Source: Engelhardtia mirabilis
Lineage (GTDB): Bacteria; Planctomycetota; UBA1135; GCA-002686595
Direction of reading: 5' to 3'
Assembly (NCBI GenBank): GCA_007751255.1
Contig: CP036296.1
Span: forward strand, 2,604,001 to 2,668,000
Length of the DNA stretch: 64,000 nucleotides
Shown here: in pieces, positions 17,124 through 57,653 of the stretch
Position numbering within the stretch: position 1 is the stretch's first letter
Layout of the letters: each line of letters starts with the position of its first letter
Translations under genes and position numbers: made by a program
Notes under the pieces: generated by a model
Told to the model about the DNA's origin: nothing
The model's input: only the letters and a program-made list of their open reading frames with translations
Databases searched by the model: none

Positions 17124-17129
17124 TATACC
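17124..17129 (+). promoter_or_regulatory. -10-like element 7 bases before the porin start
   Basis: TATACC, followed by 7 bases and the ATG at 17137. The last position differs from TANNNT, but position and context match the other short-leader promoters in the window. The rest of the 272-base gap (16865-17136) holds no gene or repeat that I recognise. Confidence 0.4.
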
Positions 17130-17136
17130 GGCTCCC

Positions 17137-18195
17137 ATGATCTCCCCGCTCGCGGCGATCCTGCTGCCCCTGGCTCCCACGCCGCTGCAGGACACCTATC
17201 CGACGACACCCCCGGCGCTCGAGCTCTCGGCCGCCGCAGTCGTCACGTCCCCCCAGGACGGGGAGCTGTTCCCCTGGCAAGAGCCCGGCAGTCAGTGGGC
17301 TCCGATCGAGATCCACACCCTGATCCGCGCCCGGGCCGAGATCTCCGACGTCAGCTCGGAGATATCGAACGACGGTGGCCGTGTCCGCCTCGACGACGCG
17401 CGCCTGTCGATCAACGGCGGGCTGGTCGATGCCTTCGAGTTCCAGTTCACCCTGGATGGGGGCGACGCGGGCAGCCAACCGGAGGGCGAGCTCGAGTTGC
17501 TCGAGGGCTACGGCGACTTCCCCATCGGCGAGCGGCACTCGATCCGCTTCGGGCAGTTCAAGCAGCCCTTCCTGCGCGGCGCCCTGACGCCCAAGGCCAG
17601 CCTGACCTTCTTCGACCGCTCCGCGGTTGCCCTGGGCGCCAACGGGTACGACCTGGGCGTGCGCGCGGATGGTCACTACGAGCTGCTGGACCTGACCTTC
17701 GCCCTGCAGAACGGAGGCGACGACGGCGGCAACGAGAGCCTCGCCACCGCCCGCGCCGAGCTGCATCCCCTCGGGGGCGGGGTGCCCCTGACCCAATCGA
17801 TGTTCGGCGACACGGGCGAAGCACGCCTGAGCTTCGGCCTGGCCTTCTCCGACGACTCGTCCATCGATCGGGGCTCGTCCTGGGCCCTCGATGCCGCCTG
17901 GCGCGCGAACAACTGGCAGCTCCTGGGCGAGTACGTCTCGAACGACGAAGACGTCGGCGACAACAACCCCTTCGCGTTGACCATGACCCACATGCTCTTC
18001 TCCGAGGAGTGGGAGTTCGGCGCGCGCTTCCAGGACCTCGACGACGTGGGCGGGTCCCAGGTGTACTCACTGGTGCTGCGGCGCTACTTCCTGCGCGGTC
18101 GCGTCTCCGCGCACTTGCAGGCCGACTACGCCGACTCGAACGACGTGGAAGTCGAAGGCACGCGCGGGCTGCTCGGCCTCACGGTCAACCTCTGA
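17137..18195 (+). CDS. OprP/OprO-like outer-membrane porin family protein
   Basis: 352 residues with a short signal peptide (MISPLAAILLPLAPTPLQ). The mature part is rich in alternating strand-like segments and contains RVRLDDARLSINGGLVDAFE, FEFQFTLDGGD, RHSIRFGQFKQPF and LTFFDRS, which are characteristic of phosphate-selective-porin O/P family proteins, and it ends in a hydrophobic strand GLLGLTVNL, compatible with outer-membrane assembly. The family forms 16-stranded channels for phosphate or other anions; selectivity cannot be told here. Slightly shorter than typical OprP (about 400). A single gene followed by a convergent hydrolase. Confidence 0.8.
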   Translation: MISPLAAILLPLAPTPLQDTYPTTPPALELSAAAVVTSPQDGELFPWQEPGSQWAPIEIHTLIRARAEISDVSSEISNDGGRVRLDDARLSINGGLVDAFEFQFTLDGGDAGSQPEGELELLEGYGDFPIGERHSIRFGQFKQPFLRGALTPKASLTFFDRSAVALGANGYDLGVRADGHYELLDLTFALQNGGDDGGNESLATARAELHPLGGGVPLTQSMFGDTGEARLSFGLAFSDDSSIDRGSSWALDAAWRANNWQLLGEYVSNDEDVGDNNPFALTMTHMLFSEEWEFGARFQDLDDVGGSQVYSLVLRRYFLRGRVSAHLQADYADSNDVEVEGTRGLLGLTVNL

Positions 18196-18216
18196 GGCTC
18201 GGCTCTGAGGCTCGGC
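18191..18216. repeat. 13-base tandem duplication across the porin stop codon
   Basis: TCTGAGGCTCGGC occurs twice in direct succession (18191-18203 and 18204-18216). The first copy contains the TGA stop of the porin gene. It looks like a recent slippage duplication just outside coding pressure. Confidence 0.85.
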
Positions 18217-18223
18217 TCCGGCG

Positions 18224-18239
18224 CGGCGATCACTCGCCG
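18224..18239. terminator. Hairpin between convergent genes
   Basis: CGGCGA-TCAC-TCGCCG: a perfect 6-base stem with a 4-base loop between the porin (plus) and hydrolase (minus) genes. The loop contains the minus-strand stop of the hydrolase. No T-run follows on either side, so terminator function is inferred from position. Confidence 0.45.
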
Positions 18240-19264: not shown

Positions 19265-19298
19265 CGACCCAGTCTGCCCGCCGCGCCATCCACGGCGC

Positions 19299-19304
19299 TA
19301 TCCT
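19299..19304 (+). promoter_or_regulatory. -10-like element, predicted leaderless start
   Basis: TATCCT, then 8 bases, then the ATG at 19313. A start site 6-7 bases after a -10 element would fall on or next to the ATG. No Shine-Dalgarno is present. Confidence 0.6.
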
Positions 19305-19312
19305 GCCGCGCC

Positions 19313-19828
19313 ATGACTGCGCTCCAAGCCCTCGAATCCGCCACTGGTCTGCTGCTCCTGGCGGCGATCGTCCACTCACTGCGGTTGCGGGCGCGGGCGC
19401 AACGGTTGCTCGGTGAGCAGCTCGGAGCCGAGTGGGGACGGGTCTGGAGCCGCTTTGCCGTGGCCGTTCCGGCGGCGACGGCCGCGATCTGGATCGCGCT
19501 ATCCGTCGGCTTGGCGTCCGCGGCCCCGGAGCTCGCGCTCTTGGTCGGTGCGGTGGTGCTGGTGATCGTGCGACCCTCCTTCGACGATCGCGTCTGCGGT
19601 TCGCTCGGCCTGCGCGCCGGGTGGCACGTACTCGCCCACGACGAGCTGGAGGAGTGGCGCCTGATCGGCGAGCACCTGCGCTTCCGGCTCTTCGGCGAAT
19701 GGGTCGCCGTGCCGCTTCCGGTCGAGCACCAGGTCGCCGTCCGCGAACGCCTGGTAGCACTGGTGCCCGAGCGCGAGAGCGCCTTCGGCCCGGGCACTGG
19801 CCGACCGGCCTACGACCCGGTTCCCTGA
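19313..19828 (+). CDS. Small membrane protein of unknown function (DUF5673-like C-terminus)
   Basis: 171 residues from the ATG at 19313. A first hydrophobic segment (about 8-22) is followed by a basic stretch and two more (about 48-66 and 70-85). The C-terminal soluble part SFDDRVCGSLGLRAGWHVLA then HDELEEWRLIGEHLRFRLFG resembles DUF5673-type domains found after membrane helices in unrelated bacteria; I am not certain of this. Located 71 bases upstream of the helicase gene, which has its own predicted promoter. Function unknown. Confidence 0.65.
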   Translation: MTALQALESATGLLLLAAIVHSLRLRARAQRLLGEQLGAEWGRVWSRFAVAVPAATAAIWIALSVGLASAAPELALLVGAVVLVIVRPSFDDRVCGSLGLRAGWHVLAHDELEEWRLIGEHLRFRLFGEWVAVPLPVEHQVAVRERLVALVPERESAFGPGTGRPAYDPVP

Positions 19829-19883
19829 AACCGCGCACGGAACGCGAGCACGATCCGTGCGAGTTTCGCGGCCTTCCGCTCGC

Positions 19884-19889
19884 TAGAAT
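19884..19889 (+). promoter_or_regulatory. -10-like element before the UvrD/PcrA gene
   Basis: TAGAAT, one of the best -10 hexamers in the window, ends 10 bases before the ATG at 19900. The predicted leader would be 0-4 bases, and no Shine-Dalgarno lies in the space. Confidence 0.6.
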
Positions 19890-19899
19890 CGCAGCCGCG

Positions 19900-22140
19900 A
19901 TGTCGGGACTGAGCTGGATGGACGTGGCCGGATCGAACGATGCGGCCCAGGACCCGAACGGTTGGCCCGCGGAAGAGCAATTGCTCGAGGGGCTCAACCC
20001 GGCTCAACGCAAGGCCGTGGTCCACGGTGGCGGTCCGCTGCTGATCCTGGCCGGCGCCGGATCGGGCAAGACGCGCGTGATCACGCGCCGCATCGCCTGG
20101 CTCGCGGCCCGCGGCGGCGTCGGGTTGGACGGCATCTGCGCGATCACCTTCACCAACAAGGCCGCGCGCGAGATGCGCGAGCGGGTCGAGACCCTGCTGC
20201 CCACCCGGGGCTCGTGGATCAGCACGTTCCACGCCATGTGCGCGCGCATCCTGCGGCGTGACGTGGAGACCCTCGGCTTCGAGGACGGCACGCGCTACAC
20301 GCGCGACTTCTCGATCTACGACACCGCCGATCGCAACTCGCTGATCAAGCGCATCGTCAAGGACCTGGGCTACGACACGACCCGCTTCCGCCCGGCCCAG
20401 GTAGGCGCCTGGATCAGCGAGCAGAAGAACCTGGCGCGCCGCGGCGAGGGCGAGGACAGCCTTGTGGAAGGCATCGAGCACGAGGTCCTGCGCCGCGTGG
20501 GGGAGCGCTACCAAGAGACCCTGCGCGCGGCCAACGCGGTCGACTTCGACGACCTCCTGCTGCTGGTGCTCGAGCTCTTCGACCGCCATCCGGGAGTGCG
20601 CGACAGCTACGCCACGCGCTTTCGGCACGTGCTGGTGGACGAGTACCAGGACACCAACCACGTGCAGTACCTGCTGACGCGGCACCTGGCCAGTGCCCAC
20701 GGCAACCTGGCGGTGTGCGGCGATCCGGACCAGTCGATCTATGCCTGGCGCGGCGCCGACATCCGCAACATCCTCGACTTCGAGCGCGACTTCCCCGGGG
20801 CCGAAGTGGTGCGCCTGGAGCAGAACTACCGCTCCACCCAGGCGATCCTCGACGCGGCCCAGGCCGTGATCCGCCACAACTCCCAGCGCAAGGAGAAGGA
20901 GCTCTACACCGAGGGCGAGGCCGGCGAGCCGCTGGGGCTCTTGGAGTGCGGTGACGAGAACGAGGAGGCCGACCAGATCGCCCTGCGGATCGCCAAGCTG
21001 CGCAGCGAGGGCTTCGGCTACGGCGACCTGGCGATCTTCTACCGGGTTAACTTCATGCAGCGCGCCCTGGAGCGCGGCCTGCGCCTGGCGGGCATTCCCT
21101 ACCGCATCGCCGGGGGCGTGGAGTTCTACCAGCGCAAGGAGATCAAGGACCTGGTCAGCTACCTGAAGCTGATCGTCAACCCCGACGACGACGTGGCCTT
21201 CCTGCGGGTGGTCAACGTGCCGGCGCGGGGCATCGGCGACCGCTCCCTGGAGCTGCTCTCCGGTTGGGCTGCCGATCGGCGCGTGTCGCTCCTGCGCGCG
21301 GCCGCCTCGAGCGAGGCGCGCTCGCAGATCCGCGGGCGGGCCAAGAAGGGTCTCGAGGCCTTCGCGGGGCTGATGGAGAACCTGCGCGACTTCGCCGGCC
21401 GCAGCGCGTCCGAGGCCCTCGAGGCGCTGCTCGAGGAGACCGACTACCTGACCTGGGTGGTGCAGTCCTCGGAGGAGAACGCGGAGACGCGCGAAGAGAA
21501 CATCGAGGAGTTCCGGGCCAACGCGGAGACCTTCGACAGCGACGACCCCGAAGGCGGGCTGCGGGCCTTCCTCGAGGACATCGCCCTGGTCAGCGAGGTC
21601 GACTCCCTGGGGGAGGGCGAGGATGCGGAGGGGCGTGTGACCCTGATGACGGTCCACGCCGCCAAGGGCCTCGAGTTCCCGGTGGTGTTCCTGCCCGGGC
21701 TCGAAGAGGAGCTGTTCCCGCACTTCCGCGCCGTGATGGACGAGGCCGGCGTCGGCCTCGAGGAGGAGCGGCGCTTGATGTACGTGGGTCTGACCCGCGC
21801 CATGAAGCGGCTGTTCCTGTCCTGGGCCCGCACGCGGACGCACTTCGGGCAGAGCTCCTGGCGCGAGCCCTCGCGCTTCCTGCGCGAGCTGCCCCAGGAC
21901 CTGGCCGCGGAGTCCGAGCCGGACGAGGTCGATCTGCTCGGGGCGTACGACGACAGGGAAGCCGGCGCCGGTCTGGGCGAGGGTGACTGGGTCATGCACG
22001 AGCACTTCGGCCGTGGCCAGGTCGAGCGCCTGCGCGGCAGCGGCGTCAACGCGCGCGCGACCGTGCGCTTCCCCAGTGCCGGCACAAAGACCCTCTTGTT
22101 GCAGTACGCCAAGCTGACCAAGCTCGGGGCGGGCTCGTGA
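19900..22140 (+). CDS. UvrD/PcrA family superfamily 1 DNA helicase
   Basis: 746 residues from the ATG at 19900. All main SF1A motifs are visible: Q motif LNPAQRKAV, Walker A AGAGSGKT (about 52-59), TFTNKAAREMRERV (Ia), VDEYQDTNHVQYLL (II), GDPDQSIYAWRGADI (III), LEQNYRSTQ (IV), LMTVHAAKGLEF (V) and ERRLMYVGLTRAM (VI). The C-terminal tail GDWVMHEHFGRGQVERLRGS is the PcrA/UvrD Tudor-like region that contacts RNA polymerase. Acts in nucleotide excision repair, mismatch repair and replication restart, unwinding 3'-to-5' with ATP. Its stop overlaps the next start (GTGA). Confidence 0.97.
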   Translation: MSGLSWMDVAGSNDAAQDPNGWPAEEQLLEGLNPAQRKAVVHGGGPLLILAGAGSGKTRVITRRIAWLAARGGVGLDGICAITFTNKAAREMRERVETLLPTRGSWISTFHAMCARILRRDVETLGFEDGTRYTRDFSIYDTADRNSLIKRIVKDLGYDTTRFRPAQVGAWISEQKNLARRGEGEDSLVEGIEHEVLRRVGERYQETLRAANAVDFDDLLLLVLELFDRHPGVRDSYATRFRHVLVDEYQDTNHVQYLLTRHLASAHGNLAVCGDPDQSIYAWRGADIRNILDFERDFPGAEVVRLEQNYRSTQAILDAAQAVIRHNSQRKEKELYTEGEAGEPLGLLECGDENEEADQIALRIAKLRSEGFGYGDLAIFYRVNFMQRALERGLRLAGIPYRIAGGVEFYQRKEIKDLVSYLKLIVNPDDDVAFLRVVNVPARGIGDRSLELLSGWAADRRVSLLRAAASSEARSQIRGRAKKGLEAFAGLMENLRDFAGRSASEALEALLEETDYLTWVVQSSEENAETREENIEEFRANAETFDSDDPEGGLRAFLEDIALVSEVDSLGEGEDAEGRVTLMTVHAAKGLEFPVVFLPGLEEELFPHFRAVMDEAGVGLEEERRLMYVGLTRAMKRLFLSWARTRTHFGQSSWREPSRFLRELPQDLAAESEPDEVDLLGAYDDREAGAGLGEGDWVMHEHFGRGQVERLRGSGVNARATVRFPSAGTKTLLLQYAKLTKLGAGS

Positions 22141-23230: not shown

Positions 23231-23268
23231 CTGCGCCCCGCTCCCCTCTGACCCAGAGCACAACGACC

Positions 23269-24753
23269 ATGCCCCGACTGATCGTCGACGACGCAGGCCA
23301 GAAGAAGGCCTTCCGCGTCTCCAAGGGTCGCCTGAGCATCGGCTCGGCTGACTCCGCCAAGCTGAAGCTGACCGCAGGTGGCGTCGAGCCCGAGCACGCG
23401 ATCCTGGTGGTGCGCCCCGAGGGCGTCCAGGTCCAGGTCCACAAGCCCGTCAAGATCGGCGGCCAGTCGGTGGATTCCGGCGAGGTCGACCTGCCCTTCG
23501 GCGCGCCCCTGGCCGTCGGCGGGGCGACGATCACCGTCGAGGCCGACGAGGCCCCGGCGAAATCGGTGCCAGCCAAGGCGGTCCCCGCCCGGGCGATGCC
23601 GGCCAAGCAGGCGGGCCCGGCGGCAGCTGCGCCCAAGGCCGGCGCTGCCCGGGCTGGCGCGCCGAGCGCCGGAGCGGCCAAGCGCGGCGCGGCTCCGTCC
23701 AAGGCCGGCGCTGCCCGCGGCGGCGCGCGCGCTGGCGCCGCCGGAGGCGGACGTCAACGGGGCGGCGATCGCGGTGCGAAGAAGCAGGGTCTGCCGGCCT
23801 GGGTGCCCATGGTGGGCGTCGTCGCGGCGCTGGCCCTGGCGGTCTGGGTATTCTCCGGCTTCGGCTCCAGCAGCAAGGCGGACAACGCCATGACCGCCGC
23901 CACGAGCCAGTTGGACGACGGCAACCTCAAGACCGCGCGCGCCAGCCTGAGCTCGATCAATCCGGCCAAGCTCAAGCCCGAGCAGAAGACGAAGTACGAG
24001 GCCTTGATGGCCGAGCTCGAAGGTCGCGAGGCCTTCAAGGACGGATCCGAGGCGCGGCTGCGCGCCATGCGCGAGGTCGACGAGCAGCTCAAGGGGTTGG
24101 TCGATCGGCAGTTCAAGACCGATCCGGCCGAGCCGGAGAAGGTCCGCCTGCTCTGGGACCGCATCGCCGCCTGGCGCGAGGACTGGCCGATGTATAAGGA
24201 TCCGATCTGGCTCGAGGATCCGAACTGGGCCGCCGACATGGCCTGGATCGCCGAGCAGGAGCAGAAGTTCGACTCGGTCATCGCCAAGGACGCGCCGTAC
24301 AACCTGGCCGACGCCGAGTTCCGCGCGTACTACTTCCTCGACTCCGGGATCAAGCGCTACAACCTCGTGATGCCGGTCATCGCCGCCGCGGCCAGCAACA
24401 CGACTGATTCCACCGAGCGCGAAGCTCTCGAGGCGCTCAACACACTGCTGAACGAGGAGCAGGTGGCCTACGCGCAGGAGCGCTTCGACAAGGCCCGTCA
24501 GTACTTCGAAGAGGGGCAGGAGGTCCAATCCGCGGCCATCCTGGTGGCGGACATCCGCACCCTGACCCAGCCCCAGTTGGTCGACCGGGCGGCGACCCTG
24601 TTGCTGGGCTTCCCCAAGATTCGGCCCATTCTCGAGGGCTACGAGCGCACCAAGCCGGAGACCTTCTCCGAGCTGATGCTGAACGGGAAGATCGCGGCCT
24701 TCGTGCGCGCGAACCTCAGCGACGCCGGCGAAGAGGCGCAGCCCGAGGGCTGA
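23269..24753 (+). CDS. FHA-like membrane protein with Ala/Lys/Pro linker and helical C-terminal domain
   Basis: 494 residues. Residues 1-92 resemble a forkhead-associated beta-sandwich (RLIVDDAGQKKAFRVSKGRL, SIGSADSAKLKL, VEPEHAILVV), a phosphothreonine-binding fold, though the canonical S..H pair is incomplete. Residues about 93-170 are a low-complexity linker of PAKAVPAR and KAGAARAGA units. One membrane helix follows (about 176-193), then an alpha-helical, charged domain to the end with WDRIAAWREDWPMYKDPIWL. The topology places the FHA part in the cytoplasm. A role in protein-phosphorylation-dependent signalling is inferred from the fold only. The 3' end overlaps the convergent kinase gene by 38 bases. 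Confidence 0.75.
   Translation: MPRLIVDDAGQKKAFRVSKGRLSIGSADSAKLKLTAGGVEPEHAILVVRPEGVQVQVHKPVKIGGQSVDSGEVDLPFGAPLAVGGATITVEADEAPAKSVPAKAVPARAMPAKQAGPAAAAPKAGAARAGAPSAGAAKRGAAPSKAGAARGGARAGAAGGGRQRGGDRGAKKQGLPAWVPMVGVVAALALAVWVFSGFGSSSKADNAMTAATSQLDDGNLKTARASLSSINPAKLKPEQKTKYEALMAELEGREAFKDGSEARLRAMREVDEQLKGLVDRQFKTDPAEPEKVRLLWDRIAAWREDWPMYKDPIWLEDPNWAADMAWIAEQEQKFDSVIAKDAPYNLADAEFRAYYFLDSGIKRYNLVMPVIAAAASNTTDSTEREALEALNTLLNEEQVAYAQERFDKARQYFEEGQEVQSAAILVADIRTLTQPQLVDRAATLLLGFPKIRPILEGYERTKPETFSELMLNGKIAAFVRANLSDAGEEAQPEG
23633..23717. repeat. Two 19-base direct repeats in the linker-coding region
   Basis: An identical 19-base block (beginning CCAAGGCCGG) occurs at 23633-23651 and 23699-23717, in the same reading frame. 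It encodes the repeated KAGAAR segment of the FHA-like protein's linker. Confidence 0.7.
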
Positions 24754-25951
24754 TCGGCACCGACGACTCGGGATCGCGATCGCGCGGCCCGGTGAACGCG
24801 ATGGGCGCAGCCTGTGCCCGCGCGGACACCGGGCCGCTCGCGTCCAGGCCGCGATCGGCGCTGCAGTCCGAGGGCGGCCAGCGATCGGGGGGCCGGGGTC
24901 CGTGCTCCAACACGGCCCAAGCGGGCGGACCTGGGGCGTGGCACAGCGGGGATGGGCCCCGCAGACGGTGTTCGGCATGGCGCGCCGCGCGGTTCCAGAT
25001 CCGCGCGACTTCGTCCCGCTGGCCTGTGACGAGCGTGCAAGCGGGGCCGTGCCCGGTGGGCAGGGGGCGGGTGACGAACTCGCTCGGCCTGCCGACGGCC
25101 ATGCGCGCCGCGCGAACGATGGCCGCAATCCGCTCGGGGCTCGCGCCTCGGGCCACCAGGACCCGCTCCCCGTCGACCGTCATCGACGCCACTCGCCCGC
25201 TGGAGCGCGACCAGCGATCCAAGTGGCGCTCGACGCGCGCGCACCGCGCCGCGCGACTCTCCCGCGCCAGCTGCTCGACCAGAGCGCGGCGCCCAGCGGG
25301 GTCATCCACGCCGGCGGCGCGCGCGAGATCCGCCGGCAGGGCGCGAGCCCAGGCCAGGGCCGCGGTGGCGAGCAGGGCCGCGGGGACGCGCTCGCGGGCC
25401 TCGCCACCCAGTGAAGCCAACTCCGCCCGGGCCCGGCGGTGTTCGAAGGCGACGATCCGCGCCTGGTGGAAGTCGATCGCGAAGAAGCGCCCGCGGCGGT
25501 CGAGCATCAGGTTGCCCAGGTGCCAGTCCGGTTGCCGCAGGCCGGCCGCGTGGAGCGCCGCCAGGGCCTCGCCGCAGCGCCGAGCGAGCAGGCGCGGCGC
25601 GTCCGGGAGCGCGGGCCACGGCGCGAGCCAACGCTCCAGTGTCCTTGCGCCCGGCAGCCAGGCAATGCGCGCGCAGGCGGCGCCCGCGCGGCGCTCGAGG
25701 CCCAGGGGCTCGGGCGTCGGCGCGCCCGCCGCTCGCAGGGCAGCCAGCACGGCGACCTCCCGCGCCGCCCGAGATCGATCGCGCAGCCGCGCCAAGGGGC
25801 CTGGTCGCCGGAAGGCCTTGACGAGCACGCGCTCGCGCCCGCGACCCTCACACCAAACGGCACGCCCCGGCAGTCGGCGCAACAGCCGCGCGCCGGCGGG
25901 AACGGCCGGGGAATCGCCGACCTCCCCGCCTCTTCTGCCGAGGATCCCCAC
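24716..25951 (-). CDS. Lipopolysaccharide kinase (Kdo/WaaP) family protein with extra C-terminal domain
   Basis: 411 residues from a GTG at 25951. The kinase-like fold shows VLVKAFRRPG (ATP-binding lysine), REVAVLAALRAAGAPTPEPL, WLPGARTLERWL, ALHAAGLRQPDWHLGNLMLD (catalytic aspartate in DWHLGN) and FFAIDFHQARI (metal-binding aspartate). This is the pattern of WaaP/KdkA/InaA kinases, which phosphorylate Kdo or heptose in the LPS core at the inner membrane. The last ~150 residues (from MTVDGERVLVARGASPERIA) do not belong to that fold and I cannot assign them. The neighbouring LptF/LptG and GT9 genes fit an LPS role. The start codon lies only 24 bases from the divergent lptF-like start. Confidence 0.82.
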   Translation of the reverse strand: MGILGRRGGEVGDSPAVPAGARLLRRLPGRAVWCEGRGRERVLVKAFRRPGPLARLRDRSRAAREVAVLAALRAAGAPTPEPLGLERRAGAACARIAWLPGARTLERWLAPWPALPDAPRLLARRCGEALAALHAAGLRQPDWHLGNLMLDRRGRFFAIDFHQARIVAFEHRRARAELASLGGEARERVPAALLATAALAWARALPADLARAAGVDDPAGRRALVEQLARESRAARCARVERHLDRWSRSSGRVASMTVDGERVLVARGASPERIAAIVRAARMAVGRPSEFVTRPLPTGHGPACTLVTGQRDEVARIWNRAARHAEHRLRGPSPLCHAPGPPAWAVLEHGPRPPDRWPPSDCSADRGLDASGPVSARAQAAPIAFTGPRDRDPESSVPISPRAAPLRRRR

Positions 25952-25958: not shown

Positions 25959-25968
25959 AAGTTACCCT
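25959..25968. promoter_or_regulatory. Overlapping divergent -10 elements serving the kinase and the lptF-like gene
   Basis: In the 24 bases between the two start codons, TAACTT reads on the minus strand (25964-25959), 7 bases before the GTG at 25951, and TACCCT reads on the plus strand (25963-25968), 7 bases before the GTG at 25976. Both transcripts would be leaderless. The two polymerases could not bind together, so expression would be mutually exclusive at any instant. Confidence 0.55.
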
Positions 25969-25975: not shown

Positions 25976-27040
25976 GTGACGCTGCTGCTCTACATCCTGC
26001 GTCAGCTGACCGTTTCGACGGCATTCGCGGTGGGGGCCCTGGCGTTCGTGGTCTTCCCCGGGATCGCGGTCTCGGCGGTCCAGCGCCTCGGAGGCGTCTC
26101 GCTCCAGGCGGTGCTGACCTACATCCCCCTGGTGGGGGTCGAGCTCGCGCCCTACCTGGTGTCCCTGGGCTTCCTGCTGGGCATCGTGAGCACCTTCGGC
26201 CGGCTGGCCGCCGACCGCGAGTGGGTGGCGATCTCCATGTCGGGGATCCACCCCTTCCGGACCCTGATCCCCGGGGCGATCCTGGCGGTGATCCTGGGCT
26301 TCGGGACCCACGCGCTGCTCGCGGACGTGTCGCCGGTGTGGAAGCTGGAGCAGGGCAACTTCCGCGGGAACGCACTCCTGGAGGCCTTCCGCAACCTCGC
26401 ACCGGGCCGCTCGGAGTTGGACCTGGGGCCCTTCTACCTGGGCGCCGTCAGTCGCGACGGCGACGCCTTCGTCGACGTGCAGATCCACGTTCCGCGCGAC
26501 GACGGCAAGGAGAACCTGGTGCTGGTGGCGGAGCGCGCGGAGCTGTCGATCTCCGAGGACGAGCTGTTCGTCCAACTGATCCAAGCGCGCACGGTCAAGC
26601 GCGACGAGATGCTGAGCAACGCGGCCCCCGCGGTGCAGATCAAGCTCTCGGACCTGATCACCCCGCGCCTCAAGGACCCGACCCGGGCCAAGCACCAGAC
26701 AAGTTCCGCGATGCGCGCGGCCCTCGCCGAGGGCGAACTGGATCCCGAGCGTGAGCTCGAGTACCGCTTCGAGATCCAGCGGCGGATGGCGGTGGGCGCC
26801 ACCTACCTGGTGTTCCTGCTGGTCGGCATCCCGACCGGTCTGTGGCTGCGCAGTGGCAATCAACTGGTCGGCATGGGGGCCGCGGCGATCTATGCCTTCA
26901 CCTACTACATCCTGAGCTTGCGGCTGGGCAGCTCCCTGGCCCTGGCGGGCACCGTCCCGCCTGCGCTCGCGGCCTGGACCACCAACATCCTCGGGGCCGC
27001 GATCGGCCTGGTGCTGACCTGGAAGTTGGTGCGGCGATGA
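25976..27040 (+). CDS. lptF: LptF/LptG family LPS export permease (first copy)
   Basis: 354 residues from the GTG at 25976. Hydrophobic segments at about 5-28, 45-75 and 85-100 form the first helices, a soluble beta-jellyroll-like region spans about 115-250 (GPFYLGAVSRDGDAFVDVQI, VAERAELSISEDELFVQLI), and three helices return at about 265-350. This is the YjgP/YjgQ layout. LptF and LptG with the LptB ATPase extract LPS from the inner membrane and pass it to the periplasmic bridge. The downstream gene is the second permease, in an ATGA overlap; assigning F to the first is by convention. No LptB is in the window. Confidence 0.88.
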   Translation: MTLLLYILRQLTVSTAFAVGALAFVVFPGIAVSAVQRLGGVSLQAVLTYIPLVGVELAPYLVSLGFLLGIVSTFGRLAADREWVAISMSGIHPFRTLIPGAILAVILGFGTHALLADVSPVWKLEQGNFRGNALLEAFRNLAPGRSELDLGPFYLGAVSRDGDAFVDVQIHVPRDDGKENLVLVAERAELSISEDELFVQLIQARTVKRDEMLSNAAPAVQIKLSDLITPRLKDPTRAKHQTSSAMRAALAEGELDPERELEYRFEIQRRMAVGATYLVFLLVGIPTGLWLRSGNQLVGMGAAAIYAFTYYILSLRLGSSLALAGTVPPALAAWTTNILGAAIGLVLTWKLVRR

Positions 27041-30755: not shown

Positions 30756-30761
30756 TAGGAT
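30756..30761 (+). promoter_or_regulatory. -10-like element, predicted leaderless start of the histidine kinase
   Basis: TAGGAT, then 7 bases, then the GTG at 30769. The start site would coincide with the GTG; no Shine-Dalgarno is present. Confidence 0.55.
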
Positions 30762-39961: not shown

Positions 39962-39969
39962 ACTATACT
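39962..39969. promoter_or_regulatory. Symmetrical bidirectional -10 element between GNAT and GT2 genes
   Basis: ACTATACT reads TATACT on the plus strand (39964-39969), 6 bases before the ATG at 39976, and TATAGT on the minus strand (39967-39962), 32 bases before the ATG at 39929. Both are 5/6 matches to TATAAT. The plus transcript would be leaderless; the minus one would have a leader of about 26 bases. Confidence 0.6.
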
Positions 39970-40818: not shown

Positions 40819-41098
40819 TCCCGATCAGGTCCAGAAGCCAATCGACCGGACCGAGATTGGGGAAGACCCACTCGCTCTCGATGATCATGTTGGGCTGGCG
40901 CGAGTCGCTCGCGTTCTCGCGGGCGATGTCGATGGCGCGCTTCGGGAAGTCGTAGGCGAAGAGCGTCAAGGCCGTCCCGCTGGAAGTGAAGCTGCCCGAC
41001 GTCTGGGTGTCACGGGTGAACGAGACGCTGGCGCAGGAGCCCAGGGTCGCGCAAGCGGCGAGCAACAGGGCCGCGGTCCCGAATCGGCGAAGACGCAT
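40748..41098 (-). CDS. Small lipoprotein of unknown function
   Basis: 116 residues, ATG at 41098. The signal MRLRRFGTAALLLAACATLG ends in a clear lipobox LGSC (cysteine at 22), so the protein is a lipoprotein. The mature part has a conserved-looking core: SSGTALTLFAYDFPKRAIDI, ARENASDSRQPNMIIESEWV, FPNLGPVDWLLDLIGIRYAR. I recognise the general look of small TRL-like or Ig-like lipoproteins but cannot name a family. Its last third overlaps the end of the GT2 gene on the other strand. It has its own well-placed -10 element. Confidence 0.8.
   Translation of the reverse strand: MRLRRFGTAALLLAACATLGSCASVSFTRDTQTSGSFTSSGTALTLFAYDFPKRAIDIARENASDSRQPNMIIESEWVFPNLGPVDWLLDLIGIRYARVTGTWGFVPTDESGAAAR
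40813..40830. terminator. Hairpin at the overlap of GT2 and lipoprotein genes
   Basis: ACCTGAT-CCCG-ATCAGGT: a perfect 7-base stem with a 4-base loop. The TGA stop of the GT2 gene lies in the stem. On the minus strand it sits inside the last codons of the lipoprotein gene, so it could end only the plus transcript cleanly. Confidence 0.45.
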
Positions 41099-41104: not shown

Positions 41105-41110
41105 ACGATA
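41105..41110 (-). promoter_or_regulatory. -10-like element, predicted leaderless start of the lipoprotein gene
   Basis: TATCGT on the minus strand, then 6 bases, then the ATG at 41098. No Shine-Dalgarno is present. Confidence 0.55.
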
Positions 41111-41214: not shown

Positions 41215-41220
41215 TAGACT
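41215..41220 (+). promoter_or_regulatory. -10-like element before the galactokinase gene
   Basis: TAGACT, then 12 bases (a C-run), then the ATG at 41233. The predicted leader is about 5 bases, with no Shine-Dalgarno. Confidence 0.55.
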
Positions 41221-47041: not shown

Positions 47042-49555
47042 TCAGGGCTTCGAATCCCGCAGCTCGATCTCGCCGAAGCCGACCCCGGCGTAGTCCGGGT
47101 GATCGGGGTGCACGCCGGTCACCTCGCGCACGCGGATCTCGATCTCCTTGATGCGCCGGCGGCGCCCGAGGTCGACCTGGGTCTTGGTCCAGTCGTCGTC
47201 GATCAGTTCGACTTCGAAGGTCGTGTCGCCGTTGAGCGTGATCGTCACCGCGGCGACGCGGCCCGTGCGCCAGGGTGCAGCCGACCAGGGCTCGTGGGCA
47301 CGGCTCAAGAGCAGGGTGTCCGCCCGCACGGGCTCCTCGAGCTCGATCTTGATCGAGGGCCGCGAGTCGTCGTCGGCGCTGATCCAGCCCTTGGCCTGGA
47401 GCCCGTCGGTGGCCTTGCTCGCGTTCCATTGGCCGCCCAGCTCGCTGGAGACCTGGGTCCTTCGCTCGGCGCGGGCCAAGAGGTTGTCGCCCGAGTCGCG
47501 CGCGTAGTCGAGCAGCTCGGGTCGGTCGACGAAGTCCGTGTGCAGCGTCACAGGCTTCGAGCGCAGCGCCACCCGCTCGCCGTCGGCGAGCAAGGCCTCG
47601 ACGGTCACACGCACGCGGTGATCCCCGCGGTCGCGGAAGCGCAGCTCGACCGGGAAGCGCACCAAGAGGGCGTCGCGATCGGCCACGCCGTCCACCCGTT
47701 CGAGCACCTCGAGCACCTGCCCGGCGCTGTCGACGAGTTCCCAGCGCACCTCGGCCACGCGCAGTCCGCCGCCGTCGGGCCACTGGACCTCGTCCAGTGC
47801 GTCCTCGGAGTAGCCCTGGATCCAGATACGCCAGGGGGCGTCGCCTGCGGCGCGCACCTGCACGTCGTCGTCGGGGCCGCCCGAGCTCGCGGTGGGGCGC
47901 CGGCCGCCCGAGCTCTCGCCGGTGGTGGCTCCGGTCGCGCGGCTCAGGAACAGCAGCGCGAAGCACGAGTCGCTGACTTCCTGGCCGTCGTCGCCGTAGG
48001 CGCGCGGGGTCCAGACGCCGTACTCGTTCTGATGGTCCAGCAGCATCCGCGCGCCCTGGGCGTACCAATCGTGGGGACCGATGTGGTCCAGGTGCAAAAG
48101 GCCCGCGACGCGCTCGAGTCCGTAGAGGTAGTAGCCCCACCAGCGGTCCTGGTCGTCGTAGGCGGCGCCCGGGGCGCGGGCGGGCTTGGGGTTGCGGGTC
48201 ACCGAGAACTCGCGCGCGAGCCACAGCACGCCCTCCTCGACGGCACGCTCCCACTCCTCGGTGTTCTTGCCCACCTGCTCGGCGGCGATGGCCAGGATCG
48301 TGATGCCCGCGGCCGTCATGGCCCCGGTGGGATCATGCCCGACGCGATAGCCGAAGCCCGTGGCGGGGTCCGAGCCCTTGCTGCGCTCGCGGTGCTTCAG
48401 CGTCGCCTTGGCGGCGTTCTTCCAGACCTTGGACGGGATCTCGACGCCGAGGTCCGCCGCCGTGCGCAGGGCGAGCAGGGCGTACTGGGTGTTCGACAGG
48501 TCCACCTCGGCGCTCGGCGTGACCGGATAGGCCCAGCCGCGCACCTCGGTCTCGACCAGGTACTCGGCCAGCTCGTCGATCCGGCCCAGGTTGCCCACGG
48601 GATCGAACAGGGCCAGGGCCATGATCTGGATCGAGGCCACGTACACGTTGTCGCCGGGATGGGCGAGCACGTACTCGATCCCGCGCACGACGCTCGGATG
48701 GTCGCGACCCACGCCGCACTTGATCAGGGTGTACACCGCCAGGGCCGTGCTGCCGGTGCGGTTGGAGTCCTCGAGGTAACGCCACGACCCGTCGAGCTGT
48801 TGCCCGCGCAGCAGGGACCCGACGCCACGTCGGATGGCCTGGTCGACCGCCGCCGCCAGCTCGGCGTCGACCTCGTCGCCCATGGCGCCCAGGCGCACGC
48901 CTGCCTGGGGATCGCGGGTGACGGAGATGCGAAAGCGCCCCAGGCAGCGGTTGTCGGCGTGGTTCTGGTCGAGCTCCACCCGCAGGATCCCTCGACCCTT
49001 GTCGGCCAAGGGTGCGCCCAGGAAGAAGACCCCCTCGAGGTCGCGCTCGACGGTCCTGCTGGGCCCCCAGGCCGTGGCGACGTTGGAGTCGGCCGCGTGG
49101 CGGGCGGGGCCTGCGAGGTCGTCCGGCGTGCCCACGGCGGCGATGATCGGGACGGGTTGGGTCGTGCGGCTACGGGTGCTGCTCGAGACCCCGACGCGCA
49201 CCTCGGCCAGCTTGAACAGGCCCCCGTCGCCCAGTCCCGGCCCGCCGGCCGGCAGGCGTTCGTCGCGCAGGGCCTCGACTCGCACGGCGCTGATGCCGGG
49301 CAGCTCGAGCTCGAAGTCGACCACCACCGTGTCGCGGGCGGCGAACTCGCCGACGGCCAGGATCGAGCGATCCTCGAGCAGTTCGTGCTCGACACCGTTG
49401 ACCGAGGTGACGCGCGTCGGCTGGAGCACCTCCCAGACCACGGCGGTCTGATCCACCGCACCCTGGGTAGGGGCGGCAGGGCTGGGCCAGGCCGCGGAAG
49501 CGGCGGTCGAGAGCAGGGCGAGGACGAGAGCGGCGGGGGGGAAACGCTGCAGCAT
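47042..49555 (-). CDS. Exported prenyltransferase/squalene-cyclase-repeat protein
   Basis: 837 residues from the ATG at 49555. Signal peptide MLQRFPPAALVLALLSTAAS. A discoidin-like region (about 50-230, with FVDFELELPGISAVRVEAL-type strands and DSNVATAWGPSRTVERD) precedes an alpha/alpha toroid (about 240-510) built of squalene-cyclase/prenyltransferase repeats (RGVGSLLRGQQLDGSWRYLE, VRGIEYVLAHPGDNVYVASI, NEYGVWTPRAYGD). A second discoidin-like domain ends the protein (NASKATDGLQAKGWISADDD; RIKEIEIRVREVTG). The DxDD cyclase motif is not evident, so this is probably a binding protein, not a cyclase. Such exported toroid proteins are abundant in planctomycetes and unassigned. Confidence 0.85.
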   Translation of the reverse strand: MLQRFPPAALVLALLSTAASAAWPSPAAPTQGAVDQTAVVWEVLQPTRVTSVNGVEHELLEDRSILAVGEFAARDTVVVDFELELPGISAVRVEALRDERLPAGGPGLGDGGLFKLAEVRVGVSSSTRSRTTQPVPIIAAVGTPDDLAGPARHAADSNVATAWGPSRTVERDLEGVFFLGAPLADKGRGILRVELDQNHADNRCLGRFRISVTRDPQAGVRLGAMGDEVDAELAAAVDQAIRRGVGSLLRGQQLDGSWRYLEDSNRTGSTALAVYTLIKCGVGRDHPSVVRGIEYVLAHPGDNVYVASIQIMALALFDPVGNLGRIDELAEYLVETEVRGWAYPVTPSAEVDLSNTQYALLALRTAADLGVEIPSKVWKNAAKATLKHRERSKGSDPATGFGYRVGHDPTGAMTAAGITILAIAAEQVGKNTEEWERAVEEGVLWLAREFSVTRNPKPARAPGAAYDDQDRWWGYYLYGLERVAGLLHLDHIGPHDWYAQGARMLLDHQNEYGVWTPRAYGDDGQEVSDSCFALLFLSRATGATTGESSGGRRPTASSGGPDDDVQVRAAGDAPWRIWIQGYSEDALDEVQWPDGGGLRVAEVRWELVDSAGQVLEVLERVDGVADRDALLVRFPVELRFRDRGDHRVRVTVEALLADGERVALRSKPVTLHTDFVDRPELLDYARDSGDNLLARAERRTQVSSELGGQWNASKATDGLQAKGWISADDDSRPSIKIELEEPVRADTLLLSRAHEPWSAAPWRTGRVAAVTITLNGDTTFEVELIDDDWTKTQVDLGRRRRIKEIEIRVREVTGVHPDHPDYAGVGFGEIELRDSKP

Positions 49556-49563: not shown

Positions 49564-49569
49564 ATCCTA
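49564..49569 (-). promoter_or_regulatory. -10-like element, predicted leaderless start
   Basis: TAGGAT on the minus strand, then 8 bases, then the ATG at 49555. The same hexamer serves the histidine kinase gene. No Shine-Dalgarno is present. Confidence 0.55.
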
Positions 49570-51402: not shown

Positions 51403-51429
51403 GGTCGCGGTCCCTCGGGAACCCGGGCG

Positions 51430-53878: not shown

Positions 53879-53886
53879 GGGGTTTT

Positions 53887-53925
53887 CCTCTGGGGTCACC
53901 CTGTTGTCACAAACAGCGTGCCAAG
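53887..53925 (-). promoter_or_regulatory. Sigma-54-like -24/-12 promoter with inverted repeat and Shine-Dalgarno
   Basis: On the minus strand TTGGCAC (53924-53918) is followed after five bases by TTGT (53912-53909), against the sigma-54 pattern TGGCAC-N5-TTGC: the -24 part is perfect and the -12 part has one mismatch. CTGTT-GTCACA-AACAG (53901-53916) is an inverted repeat overlapping it. Predicted start near 53897, then AGAGGA (53891-53886) and the ATG at 53878. No TANNNT hexamer is well placed. Prediction only. Confidence 0.4.
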
Positions 53926-54025
53926 CCGGGGGGGCAACCTGGTGCCCGTCGAGAGGGGTCGCCGCCGCCGTCGTCCCCTCGAGAGGACACCCGCCGGGAC
54001 TCCCCTGGAGGACGCCAGTACCCCT

Positions 54026-55285
54026 TCATTGGACCCCGTTCAGCGGCTGCACCAGGGTCGAAGGGCCGCCCTCGGCGCCGATCCGAACGTAGGGCGGCGG
54101 AGGGTCGCCTCCCGCAGGGACCTGAGCCGCCAGGCGTGCGACGTCGGGCGCGCCGATGCGATCGAGTCGCTCGAACCACAGGCGGGCCGCTCTCCCAGCT
54201 GGTCGGGCCTCCCAGCCCGTCGGCAGTGGACCGGCGGGGAACTCTTCCAGCGCCAAGAGCACCGCCGTCGGCCGACCCTGCCCGTCGACCTGCATCAGCC
54301 GCGTGGGGCGCAGGATCCGGCCGCTACCCGCCAACTCGGCGGCAACCTCGCCGCGCAACCGCGCCTCGTCCTCGAGGGCGGCAGACCATTCGCGCCGCTC
54401 GCGCGCGAGGGGGATGGCGCGGACCACCAGCGCGGTGATCTCGCCCACCCGCACTTCGCCACCGACCCCGTCGCCCGCGATCCGGTCCACCGGCAGGAAG
54501 TAGTCGTCCCGGAAGTTCACGTTGAGCGCGACCTCGGCGACGCGCTCGGTCCACACCGCTTGGCCGGCCATCTCGAGGCGCAGCTCCGTGGGGTGTTCGC
54601 GGCCGTCGGTGGAAGCCCAAGCGCCCACGGTCAGGGTCGCGTTCACCGAGCCGTCGGCGCTTCGGACCGACATGCTGCGCGGCCAGCCGTCGTCGTCGAG
54701 GGTCGCGACGAGGGACCCGATCGGATCCCCCGCGGGCTCGAGGAACAGGTCACAGCGCCGCAACGCGCCCTCGGCCACCCAGTCGAAACCCTGGGGCCAC
54801 AGGAACAGGGCGCGTCGCAGCTCGAACATACCGAGGGTGCTGGCGCGCGACTCGCCCTCGAGCTCGACCGACTCCGAGTTCGCGTCAGCCTGGGCGAACA
54901 GGCGCGGACCCAGGTGGAACTCGTTGGATCGATCGGCCGGCCGTCCGCCGACCAACGCCAGCTCGAAGCGAGCACGGTCGGGGAACATCCAAGTGGCCGT
55001 GAGTCGATGGGGCCATTGGGGCGCGGAGTCGAAGGTCAGGTCCGAGACCACGCTCATTCCGCGCAGTCCGGCGATCGGTGCCAGGGACTGGGGGGCGAGG
55101 GGGTCGGCGCTCTGTGTCGCGACGGCCGGCGCCACCGCGTTCGGCGTGACTGTCGGTGCCGCGTGGGGATTGCCGCGCGGAGCCGCCGGCTGCGGCTCCT
55201 TGTTCCCGCAGGCCGAACCGGCAATGGCGAGGAATGACGCCGCTACCGACAGCGCTCCGCGACCGTGGGACCTTCGACCCCTCAT
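54026..55285 (-). CDS. Lipoprotein of unknown function
   Basis: 419 residues, ATG in an ATGA overlap with the aminotransferase stop. The signal GALSVAASFLAIAGSAC ends in a lipobox AGSAC (cysteine near 26). A Pro/Ala-rich spacer (about 30-60) leads to a domain of alternating strands that looks like an outer-membrane-lipoprotein (LolA/LolB or DUF-type) beta barrel half: LTATWMFPDRARFELALVGG, SRASTLGMFELRRALFLWPQ, GDPIGSLVATLDDDGWPRSM, RVAEVALNVNFRDDYFLPVD. The C-terminus is unassigned. Despite the coupling, a functional tie with the aminotransferase is not obvious. Confidence 0.75.
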   Translation of the reverse strand: MRGRRSHGRGALSVAASFLAIAGSACGNKEPQPAAPRGNPHAAPTVTPNAVAPAVATQSADPLAPQSLAPIAGLRGMSVVSDLTFDSAPQWPHRLTATWMFPDRARFELALVGGRPADRSNEFHLGPRLFAQADANSESVELEGESRASTLGMFELRRALFLWPQGFDWVAEGALRRCDLFLEPAGDPIGSLVATLDDDGWPRSMSVRSADGSVNATLTVGAWASTDGREHPTELRLEMAGQAVWTERVAEVALNVNFRDDYFLPVDRIAGDGVGGEVRVGEITALVVRAIPLARERREWSAALEDEARLRGEVAAELAGSGRILRPTRLMQVDGQGRPTAVLLALEEFPAGPLPTGWEARPAGRAARLWFERLDRIGAPDVARLAAQVPAGGDPPPPYVRIGAEGGPSTLVQPLNGVQ

Positions 55286-56442
55286 CCCAGACGCTCGCGC
55301 AGGATCGTCGCCGCGCTCTCGAGGGTTTCACTGCGCTTGGCGAAGCAGAAGCGGATCAGGTGCCGACCGTCGCGCGGGTCGGCGAAGAAGCTCGAGCCGG
55401 GCACCGTCGCCACGCCGCCGCCCCGCACGAGCTCCATCGCGAAGGCCACGTCGTCCAGCTCCGTGTGGCGGCGGATGTCGACCATCGCGTAGTAGGCACC
55501 GCCCGGCGCGAAGACTTCGAAGCCCACCTCCTCGAGCACGCTCACCAGCGCGTCCCGGCGCGCCGTGTAGTCGACCGCGAGCCGCGCAAAGTACTCGTCC
55601 CCGAAGCCCAGGGCGTCCGCGGCCGCCTCTTGCAGCGGCGCGGCGGCCCCCACGGTCAGGAAGTCGTGCACCTTGCGGATCGGCGCCGTCAGCTCCGGCT
55701 GGGCCACGCACCAGCCGATGCGCCAACCGGTGGCGCTCCAGGTCTTGGAGAGGCCGCTGATCGTGACCGTGCGCTCGGCCATGCCCGGCAGGGTCGCGAG
55801 CGAGACGTGCTCGCGGCCGTCGTAGAGGATGTACTCGTAGATCTCGTCGGTGATCGCCAGCACGTCGTGCTCGACGCACAGCCCCGCGATCAGCTCCAGC
55901 TCGGCACGGCTCAGGACCTTGCCGGTGGGGTTGTGGGGCGTGTTGACGATGATCGCGCGGGTGCGCGGACCGAAGGCCGCCGCCAGCTCCGCGGGATCGA
56001 AGCTCCAGTCCGGCGCGCGCAGGGACACGAAGCGCGGCGCCGCCCCGGCCAGCACGCAGTCGGGCCCGTAGTTCTCGTAGAAGGGCTCGAAGACGATCAC
56101 CTCGTCACCCGGGTCGACGGTGGCGAGCAGCGCGGCGATCATGGCCTCGGTCGCGCCGCAGCAGACCGTGACGTCGGTCTCCGCGTCGGTCGGGATCCCG
56201 TTGTAGGCCGCCGTGCGCCGCGCGATCGCCTCCCGCAGGCGCGGCGCGCCCCAGGTTACCGCGTACTGGTTGATGTCGGCCTCGATCGCGCGGCTGGCCG
56301 CCGCCTTCATGGGCGCAGGCGCCGCGAAGTCCGGAAAGCCCTGGGCCAGGTTGACCCCGCCCTCCGCGCGGCAGACCCGCGACATCTCGCGGATCACGGA
56401 CTCGGTGAAGCGAGAGGCCTTCTGGGAGCTGAGCGGTCGCAC
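55282..56442 (-). CDS. Class I/II PLP-dependent aminotransferase
   Basis: 386 residues from a GTG at 56442. N-terminal INLAQGFPDF-type substrate loop (VNLAQGFPDFAAP), YAVTWGAPRLREAIARR, CCGATEAMIAALLA (cofactor phosphate), YENYGPDCVLAGA, NTPHNPTGKVLS, ITDEIYEYILYDG (pyridine-contacting aspartate) and SGLSKTWSATGWRIGW with the PLP lysine. The C-terminus has RFCFAKRSETLESA with the substrate-carboxylate arginine. This set is closest to kynurenine-oxoglutarate/cysteine-S-conjugate beta-lyase or methionine aminotransferases (KAT/YbdL subgroup). Cytoplasmic amino-acid transamination; substrate uncertain. Confidence 0.93.
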   Translation of the reverse strand: MRPLSSQKASRFTESVIREMSRVCRAEGGVNLAQGFPDFAAPAPMKAAASRAIEADINQYAVTWGAPRLREAIARRTAAYNGIPTDAETDVTVCCGATEAMIAALLATVDPGDEVIVFEPFYENYGPDCVLAGAAPRFVSLRAPDWSFDPAELAAAFGPRTRAIIVNTPHNPTGKVLSRAELELIAGLCVEHDVLAITDEIYEYILYDGREHVSLATLPGMAERTVTISGLSKTWSATGWRIGWCVAQPELTAPIRKVHDFLTVGAAAPLQEAAADALGFGDEYFARLAVDYTARRDALVSVLEEVGFEVFAPGGAYYAMVDIRRHTELDDVAFAMELVRGGGVATVPGSSFFADPRDGRHLIRFCFAKRSETLESAATILRERLG

Positions 56443-56448
56443 GCCCCG

Positions 56449-56454
56449 ATGCTA
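56449..56454 (-). promoter_or_regulatory. -10 element with possible -35, predicted leaderless aminotransferase start
   Basis: TAGCAT on the minus strand, then 6 bases, then the GTG at 56442. GTCACA (56477-56472) lies 17 bases upstream of it, a 4/6 match to TTGACA. This is the best -35/-10 pair I found. Confidence 0.55.
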
Positions 56455-56500
56455 TCCGCCCCGGCGCCGGATGTGACGCGCGTCGGTCCGCGACGGGTCG

Positions 56501-57544
56501 CTACGGCAATCCGAACGCCCAGCGGCGCCAGTACTTCATGTCGCCGCCGTAGTCGTTTCGCGCGAGCTTGGCGGCTTCGCGGCGCAGGAACTCGCGGCGG
56601 GTGGTGGGGGCCTCGTCGAGGGCGGTGACCAGCTCGCGGGCGACCGGGCCCTCGAGCGAGATGTCGCCCACGGCCAGGGCCGAGAGGGCGTCGAGGGCCG
56701 ACAAGAAGACCATGTCGACGGGATCGCTGAGCAGGCCGCCGAGGTCGTCCACGGCATCGCTGTCCACGATCACGCCCAGGGTGCGCGCGGCCTGGACCCG
56801 CACCGGGGCTTCGGAGTCGAGCAGCGCCCGGCGCAGAGCCGGCCCCACGTCGGCGTCGCGCCCGCCGGCCCGCGCCACGCGATAGATCGCGTAGGCGGCG
56901 TTGACCCGCACGTAGCCCTCGAACGCCGAGCGCAGCTCCTCGAGCAGCGGGTCGAGGGGGGTGTCGGCGTCGGCGCGGATGCCCAGTCCGAACAGGGCCT
57001 GGCCGACAACGTCGCGGTTGGAGTCGCCGAGGGCCGCCAGGAGCGGACCCAGCACCTCCTCGTCCCGGGCGAAGCCCAGCCCGGCGGCGGCGATCCAGCG
57101 GTTGCGCAGGGGCCCGGACTCGAGTTCGAAGACCAGCTCGTCCGCGCGCACGGAGACGAAGCGTTGGATCTCGGCCTCCAGGCTCTCGCGGCGCCGGTCG
57201 TCCTTGGCCTTGCCGCTGGCCTTGAGGGTCATCCACAACTGGATCCGCACGTCGATCGCCGCCAGAAACTGCCCGATGGGCTGGTCGCTGGAGATGATCA
57301 CCTCAGCGTTCGGAATCCGGCCCAGGTCGCTGTTGGCCAGGTCGCGTTCGTGCTCGCTGTACTGGTCGCCGGTGGAAGAGCAGCCGACCACGGCCGTCGC
57401 CAGGACCGTCGGCATCAGCAATCCTCGGCCCAACCTCGCGGCAAGGACTGCCAGCGGTCGAGCGGCGGAGTCGCGCGGACCGGCGTTGCCACTGCTGGTG
57501 GAGTCGGCGCGGGGGACGTCGGAGTGGTCGGAGGATCGCAGCAT
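56501..57544 (-). CDS. HEAT-repeat lipoprotein
   Basis: 347 residues from the ATG at 57544. The lipobox VVGC falls at about residue 55, after an unusually long 30-40-residue polar N-terminus; a later ATG at 57415 would leave only twelve residues before the cysteine, too short for a signal, so an intermediate start is also possible. The mature protein is helical with HEAT-like repeats: NRWIAAAGLGFARDEEVLGP, LLAALGDSNRDVVGQALFGL, RVNAAYAIYRVARAGGRDAD, VRVQAARTLGVIVDSDAVDD, VFLSALDALSALAVGDISLE. HEAT proteins bind partners; the role is unknown. Divergent from the leucine-dehydrogenase-like gene. Confidence 0.85.
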   Translation of the reverse strand: MLRSSDHSDVPRADSTSSGNAGPRDSAARPLAVLAARLGRGLLMPTVLATAVVGCSSTGDQYSEHERDLANSDLGRIPNAEVIISSDQPIGQFLAAIDVRIQLWMTLKASGKAKDDRRRESLEAEIQRFVSVRADELVFELESGPLRNRWIAAAGLGFARDEEVLGPLLAALGDSNRDVVGQALFGLGIRADADTPLDPLLEELRSAFEGYVRVNAAYAIYRVARAGGRDADVGPALRRALLDSEAPVRVQAARTLGVIVDSDAVDDLGGLLSDPVDMVFLSALDALSALAVGDISLEGPVARELVTALDEAPTTRREFLRREAAKLARNDYGGDMKYWRRWAFGLP

Positions 57545-57643
57545 CGGCGGAAGGGGGCGGAGAGGGCGGCGGGCAGATTGGCCCTGGGACGACGCTCGAG
57601 CGCGGATCTTCCCAACCGGCGCCGCTGGGGAGCCAGGGTCGCG

Positions 57644-57653
57644 AGGCTATGCT
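57644..57653. promoter_or_regulatory. Overlapping divergent -10 elements between HEAT lipoprotein and dehydrogenase genes
   Basis: AGGCTATGCT reads TATGCT on the plus strand (57648-57653), 13 bases before the ATG at 57667, and TAGCCT on the minus strand (57649-57644), 99 bases before the ATG at 57544. The plus transcript would have a leader of about 6 bases. An in-frame ATG at 57649 is part of this element and is not used as a start. Confidence 0.45.

Follow-up and report, generated by a model that had tools for sequence, protein, structure and literature searches.

TANNNT boxes close before start codons point to probable -10-only promoters and leaderless mRNAs in Engelhardtia mirabilis and other Planctomycetota

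In a 64-kb window of Engelhardtia mirabilis DNA (the whole stretch analysed, positions 2604001-2668000 of contig 1, G000:C1, in a genome of 6.95 Mb and two contigs), a hexamer of the form TANNNT recurs a few bases before start codons. These boxes are very probably -10-only promoters that would give rise to leaderless or near-leaderless mRNAs. A sequence-only reading of the window had proposed as much from eleven start codons, and the proposal gained strong support from a genome-wide peak at spacings of 6-9 bases and from boxes in orthologs that stay beside the start codon. Comparison of RpoC places the genome in Planctomycetota: of 142 relatives found, the best 80 bear planctomycete or unnamed-bacterium titles. 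Two of the chromosomes, Pla163 and Poly30, which belong to isolates with complete genomes, share 84% and 82% identity with it in this protein.

Gene-level tests were conducted on a 1.264-Mb sample of the genome, window included, with a GC content of ~70%. A purpose-written gene caller, which uses codon statistics and start-codon type only and ignores upstream sequence, gave 897 genes, of which 893 had a usable neighbour. Genes were taken as first-like when divergent from their neighbour or when the same-strand gap was at least 80 bases (280 of each, n = 560), and spacing was counted as the bases between the end of the hexamer and the start codon. TANNNT stood at spacings of 6-12 before 80 of the 560 first genes (14.3%) versus 1.7% in control windows, while 200 dinucleotide shuffles of positions -40 to -1 yielded a mean of 7.5 (standard deviation 2.8, maximum 18). 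Counts at spacings 0 to 12 were 1, 0, 0, 1, 0, 0, 17, 20, 18, 11, 4, 5 and 5, with a sharp lower limit at 6 and two genes in total at 0-5. The peak at 6-9 is the genome-wide positional signal that had been set beforehand as the test of the proposal, and an excess also appeared in the whole-genome counts described below. Furthermore, of the 64 patterns of the form XYNNNZ at spacings of 6-9, TANNNT was the sole strong enrichment (66 observed versus 6.8 expected), the second-ranked CCNNNA reaching 2.2-fold (80 versus 36.2). By gene class, the box was found in 58/280 divergent genes and in 22/280, 12/105 and 6/228 (2.6%) of same-strand genes with gaps of at least 80, 25-79 and below 25 bases, respectively; it mainly marks the first genes of transcription units. 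An expectation-maximization fit seeded with TANNNT returned (T/G)A, then a weak G and a final T in divergent genes, and assigned 93.5 of the 280 to spacings of 5-13; strict TANNNT may therefore undercount. Only this divergent-class fit was used, the same-strand and overlap classes having drifted to codon-like motifs.

The 3' end of 16S rRNA carries an intact anti-Shine-Dalgarno sequence (CACCTCCTT), and its use differs between gene classes. Cores, defined as GGAG, GAGG or AGGA at -17 to -5, preceded 55% of 130 overlapping operon genes without a box (15% after shuffling), 9% of divergent TANNNT genes (7% shuffled), and 19% of same-strand genes with a gap of at least 80 and no TANNNT (8% shuffled). 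A core was present in 9 of the 80 TANNNT first genes, lying within the hexamer in six of the 80, and in 78 of the 480 first genes without TANNNT; in six genomes, 6 of 148 promoters had one between box and start. First genes rarely use Shine-Dalgarno sequences, though not never. As a separate observation, CC precedes the start codon in 44% of 221 divergent genes without TANNNT, a class that is also poor in cores.

That last class bears on the best-surviving alternative, in which the hexamer serves as a weak AT island, either preventing the start region from folding or binding ribosomal protein S1, within an ordinary leader whose promoter lies further upstream. Leaderless mRNA and/or S1 have been considered as alternative sources of AT-rich signals where Shine-Dalgarno sequences are absent (PMC5397173), and divergent genes without TANNNT are also poor in cores (13% versus 7% shuffled). 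However, other AT-bearing patterns are not strongly enriched, and the signal is oriented: at spacings of 6-12, TANNNT occurs in 148 of 999 first genes of six genomes, ANNNTA in 34. The lower limit at 6 and the rarity of the box in closely spaced operon genes also speak against an AT island, which is very unlikely to be the explanation.

As to promoter anatomy, the third position of the hexamer weakly favours G and the fifth weakly favours C, and the commonest forms in the same 148 genes are TAGACT (15), TATCCT (11) and TAGGAT (10). A -35 element, expected as a TTGACA-like sequence about 17 bases upstream, is mostly absent, and a classical -10/-35 promoter was rejected: TTGAC was found 18-30 bases upstream of the box in 0/148 promoters and TTGA in 5/148; TTG occurred there 0-3 times per position versus 0.9 per position further upstream. 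An extended -10 was also rejected, only a weak G being seen two bases ahead of the box. In the primary sigma factor, encoded at L059:2609-4339, region 4.2 still looks normal when compared by eye with that of E. coli; matches to the sigma-70 region 2 family number 91 in the window's genome and 120 in Poly30. The spacer is C-rich and A-poor, with A at 5-12% over -6 to -1 in 108 boxed genes with spacings of at least 7, versus 8-21% in 909 other first genes, and purines at -2 in 17% versus 30%, a composition that would suit transcripts beginning at the start-codon purine. TTG was the start codon of 0/152 TANNNT first genes versus 41/909 others (seven genomes, p 0.0025).

The boxes and genes of the window are as follows (family matches are to Pfam).

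17124..17129, + strand: weak -10-like TATACC, spacing 7, before gene 17137-18195 (weak Porin_O_P match); the last base is C, hence not TANNNT
19299..19304, + strand: TATCCT, spacing 8, before gene 19313-19828 (no Pfam match)
19884..19889, + strand: TAGAAT, spacing 10, before gene 19900-22140 (UvrD/PcrA helicase)
25959..25964, - strand: TAACTT, spacing 7, before gene 24716-25951 (Kdo/WaaP-like kinase); TA step common with the next box
25963..25968, + strand: TACCCT, spacing 7, before gene 25976-27040 (LptF/LptG permease); divergent from the preceding gene, start codons 24 bp apart
30756..30761, + strand: TAGGAT, with AGGA inside, spacing 7, before gene 30769-32796 (HAMP histidine kinase)
39964..39969, + strand: TATACT, spacing 6, before the proposed start 39976 of a family-2 glycosyltransferase ending at 40818
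41105..41110, - strand: TATCGT, spacing 6, before gene 40748-41098 (116-aa lipoprotein-like protein, no Pfam match)
41215..41220, + strand: TAGACT, spacing 12, before gene 41233-42426 (galactokinase/GHMP kinase)
49564..49569, - strand: TAGGAT, with AGGA inside, spacing 8, before gene 47042-49555 (weak Pfam matches only)
56449..56454, - strand: TAGCAT, spacing 6, before gene 55282-56442 (class I/II aminotransferase)
57648..57653, + strand: TATGCT, spacing 13, before gene 57667-58815 (Glu/Leu/Phe/Val dehydrogenase)

All eleven main starts carry TANNNT 6-13 bases upstream, and the start at 17137 is a weaker case, both as originally described. The hexamer is rare, at 0.69/kb over both strands; because this amounts to ~44 copies in the window, the eleven start-linked boxes make up a quarter of them. 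The absence of Shine-Dalgarno sequences claimed for these starts held for nine of the eleven and failed at 30769 and 49555, where the sole core is the AGGA inside TAGGAT. Each boxed gene is the first of its unit, being divergent from its neighbour or preceded by a same-strand gap of at least 58. Overlapping operon genes, originally described as using ATGA/GTGA overlaps, have an A directly after the start codon in 77% of the 130 cases without a box. The upstream-blind caller recovered nine of the eleven main starts and also 17137. For the glycosyltransferase ending at 40818 it preferred 40000 over 39976, and 39955 is likewise a possible start; the ORF starting at 41098 scored 29.4, above threshold, and was dropped by the overlap rule, 71 of its 351 bases overlapping a neighbour. 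Among called genes of the window that were divergent or had a gap of at least 50 (n = 28), nine had a box at 6-13, versus 0.7% in the control windows of the same genes.

In all likelihood 40748-41098 is a genuine gene: its predicted protein has homologs in 26 of 41 genomes searched, among them 23 of 25 genomes of its own family (own genome counted), and in 22 of those 23 the homolog adjoins an opposite-strand galactokinase match, as judged by comparing coordinates by eye. In the relative G004, both genes of such a divergent pair carry a box. A likeness to a protein of another relative, G036, was rejected as signal-peptide similarity.

To examine conservation, any candidate start close to the aligned N-terminus of an ortholog was checked for a TANNNT lying 6-13 bases ahead of it; the locus in the window itself is counted unless stated, and loci were dropped when identity was below 30%, when the alignment began past residue 40, or when the available upstream DNA was too short. 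The UvrD box was found in 22/30 loci, comprising 20/23 at 55% identity or more (19/22 without the own locus) and 2/7 below. The aminotransferase gave 16/30, with 11/14 (10/13 without the own locus) and 5/16 in the same two classes, and the Kdo-like kinase 8/9 usable loci (7/8 without the own locus) after 21/30 had been dropped. Among in-frame ATG, GTG and TTG codons inside the same genes, 17/1969 had a box; with a mean of 1.7-1.9 candidate starts per locus, chance would place a box at a locus about twice as often as at an internal codon. Box position is clearly conserved in UvrD, the Kdo-like kinase and the aminotransferase, and not in LptF or distant dehydrogenases.

These orthologs also bear on the possibility that starts were miscalled, so that a normal -10 promoter would precede a short leader and a true start further downstream. 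Nearby alternatives do exist: 39976 has 39955 and 40000, and in several UvrD orthologs another in-frame start follows 9-18 bases further on. However, calling relied on coding potential and start-codon type alone, and spacings peak at 6-9. In UvrD, moreover, the box-marked start shifts by up to ~100 bases relative to the alignment, and among orthologs with N-termini of differing length the box travels with a start codon. Miscalling is likewise very unlikely to be the explanation.

Relatives were tested in the same way at the gene level, with 200 kb each, first genes and control windows. The box was found in 18/110 first genes of Pla163 (control 1.5%), 11/105 of Poly30 (2.1%), 13/84 of G004 (3.0%) and 19/73 of G036 (2.4%). 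Whole-genome counts for 147 Planctomycetota genomes compared TANNNT-N6-8-ATG with TANNNT-N15-17-ATG, which has the same reading phases; they cover ATG starts, and a spacing control was used since a reversed-pattern control differs in composition, exceeding the forward count in some genomes. The window's genome had 433 of the former versus 155 of the latter. Across the 147 genomes, z exceeded 5 in 64 and 3 in 81, lay between -2 and 2 in 53, and was below -3 in none. Where the control count was below 700 (n = 72), 58 genomes were above z 5 and 10 below z 3; power is low in AT-richer genomes, 0/33 with a control count of at least 2000 reaching z >5. At least one genome above z 5 was present in 27 of 67 families. 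By these counts no excess was seen in families f30 (seven genomes, ratios 0.99-1.09), f21 (five genomes, 1.01-1.10) and f45 (seven genomes, 0.95-1.03, all with high backgrounds), nor in f17 and f37. Background is low in some genomes of f30, f21 and f17, and lack of power is therefore not a sufficient explanation for the absence in f30 and f21. An enrichment created by composition or by the choice of examples, the first of which were picked by eye, is hardly conceivable: the shuffles contradict it, the excess is reproduced in the genome sample, the shuffle test, the 64-pattern comparison and the orthologs, and ratios of 0.95-1.10 in f30, f21 and f45 under identical counting indicate that the counting itself creates no excess.

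Several observations weigh against the -10-only, leaderless reading. LptF had a box in 9/22 usable loci (8/21 without its own), although two of the 8/30 loci dropped (L290, L291) do carry one, and the dehydrogenase at 57667 in 4/30, with 3/4 among close loci (2/3 without its own) and 1/26 among distant ones, which were drawn from across the phylum. Among relatives, G011 showed a modest excess (7/67 first genes versus control 4.0%) and G031, with 57% GC, none (4/62 versus 5.0%). Boxes also precede six of the 228 closely spaced same-strand genes, where they are perhaps internal promoters. TAGGAT, 10 of the 148 hexamers, includes AGGA, and the 22 same-strand TANNNT genes with a gap of at least 80 had cores in 18% versus 9% shuffled. 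The TTGA of 5/148 promoters was confined to positions 18-30 (0 at 31-43 and 0 at 44-56), so that a partial -35 may be present in a few cases. Two boxed loci each of UvrD and LptF have TTG as the first box-marked start, a codon that generally serves poorly for leaderless initiation. Finally, spacings of 10-13, as at 19900, 41233 and 57667, may leave leaders of a few bases.

The boxes of the Kdo-like kinase and LptF in the window exemplify a compact arrangement. Of 267 divergent pairs in the window's genome and five relatives, 96 had a box before at least one of the two genes and 12 before each of them, and in three of the 267 the opposite-strand boxes have just the TA step in common (ANNNTANNNT), with start codons 22, 23 and 24 bp apart.

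Window 25951/25976, divergent: Kdo-like kinase and LptF, start codons 24 bp apart
Genome 2591648/2591672, divergent: FGE-sulfatase-domain protein and DUF6624 protein
G036:C3 250698/250721, divergent: CstA and sodium:dicarboxylate symporter

Gaps of 20-29 occurred in four pairs, the fourth (in G011) without boxes, and gaps of 3-19 in 0/267. The 24-bp arrangement of Kdo-like kinase and LptF was not seen in seven relatives with a Kdo-side box, whose gaps are 3, 94, 102, 109, 112, 177 and 206. At one locus (L283 in G002) the divergent Kdo-like and LptF starts are ~3 bp apart, and the Kdo-side box lies within the coding start of LptF. Three cases being few, the compact pairs are offered as a lead only.

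From the position, specificity, conservation and distribution of the motif, and from the scarcity of Shine-Dalgarno and -35 signals, we infer promoter activity, exact start sites and a route of translation as follows. TANNNT would be the -10 element of a housekeeping-type promoter, placed so near the gene that transcription starts on the start codon or a few bases ahead of it. Because nearly all of these promoters are without a -35 consensus, the -10 box would be the main feature that RNA polymerase recognises. The mRNA would start with AUG or GUG and be translated leaderless or near-leaderless, making no Shine-Dalgarno contact. Leaderless mRNAs are translated by a 70S/initiator-tRNA route, which is presumably used here. 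Downstream genes that overlap their predecessors use Shine-Dalgarno sequences.

Whether -10-only leaderless expression is a major, if patchy, mode of high-GC Planctomycetota, with its signal detectable in 27 of 67 sampled families and undetected in others, is an evenly balanced question; its most compact form would be divergent genes read from one shared TA step, the 22-24-bp intergenic region acting as a two-way promoter without a leader on either side. If starts in the phylum are assigned with the help of Shine-Dalgarno models, a -10 box would in many cases be the better guide. Moreover, families with and without the signal would allow the gain or loss of leaderless initiation to be compared inside one phylum.

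In the literature, a survey of leaderless genes placed TANNNT roughly 12 bp ahead of start codons, with the middle three bases low in information in high-GC groups, and found 207 of 953 genomes positive, one of them listed as unclassified (Zheng 2011, PMC3160421). Planctomycetes are not named among its positive groups, and the string "planctomyc" is absent from its text. Nucleotide bias in one planctomycete genome has been attributed to leaderless mRNA and/or S1 (PMC5397173), which agrees with the window's genome in non-Shine-Dalgarno initiation; it differs in resting on a single genome, and motif, spacing and gene-level evidence were not found in its available portions. Nothing on leaderless planctomycetes was found in the accessible part of PMC10783764, and the open-licence literature matches listed include no study of leaderless transcription or start-site mapping in Planctomycetes.

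Bidirectional promoters have been described with divergent start sites 7-25 bp apart, usually 18 bp, and reciprocally overlapping -10 elements (PMC10268837, beside which PMC12825309 is cited). The compact pairs are like them in having overlapping opposite-strand -10 elements and unlike them in that it is the start codons that lie 22-24 bp apart, the boxes share one TA step only, and transcription would begin at or close to each start codon.

The closest parallel is found in Deinococcus-Thermus, where almost one in three D. radiodurans genes has TANNNT ~6-7 bp ahead of its ORF, where the motif is conserved in homologs, and where mutation in a reporter showed it to be a promoter rather than a ribosome-binding site (PMC12340547). 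Common to that system and the window's genome are a TANNNT close before the ORF and its retention in homologs. The present case differs in belonging to another phylum, in its spacing of 6-12, in the share of genes with strict TANNNT (58/280 divergent genes), and in its sequence-based evidence. The evidence supports well the view that a gene organisation of a kind known from Deinococcus-Thermus and Actinobacteria is probably in use in a lineage from which it is scarcely documented.

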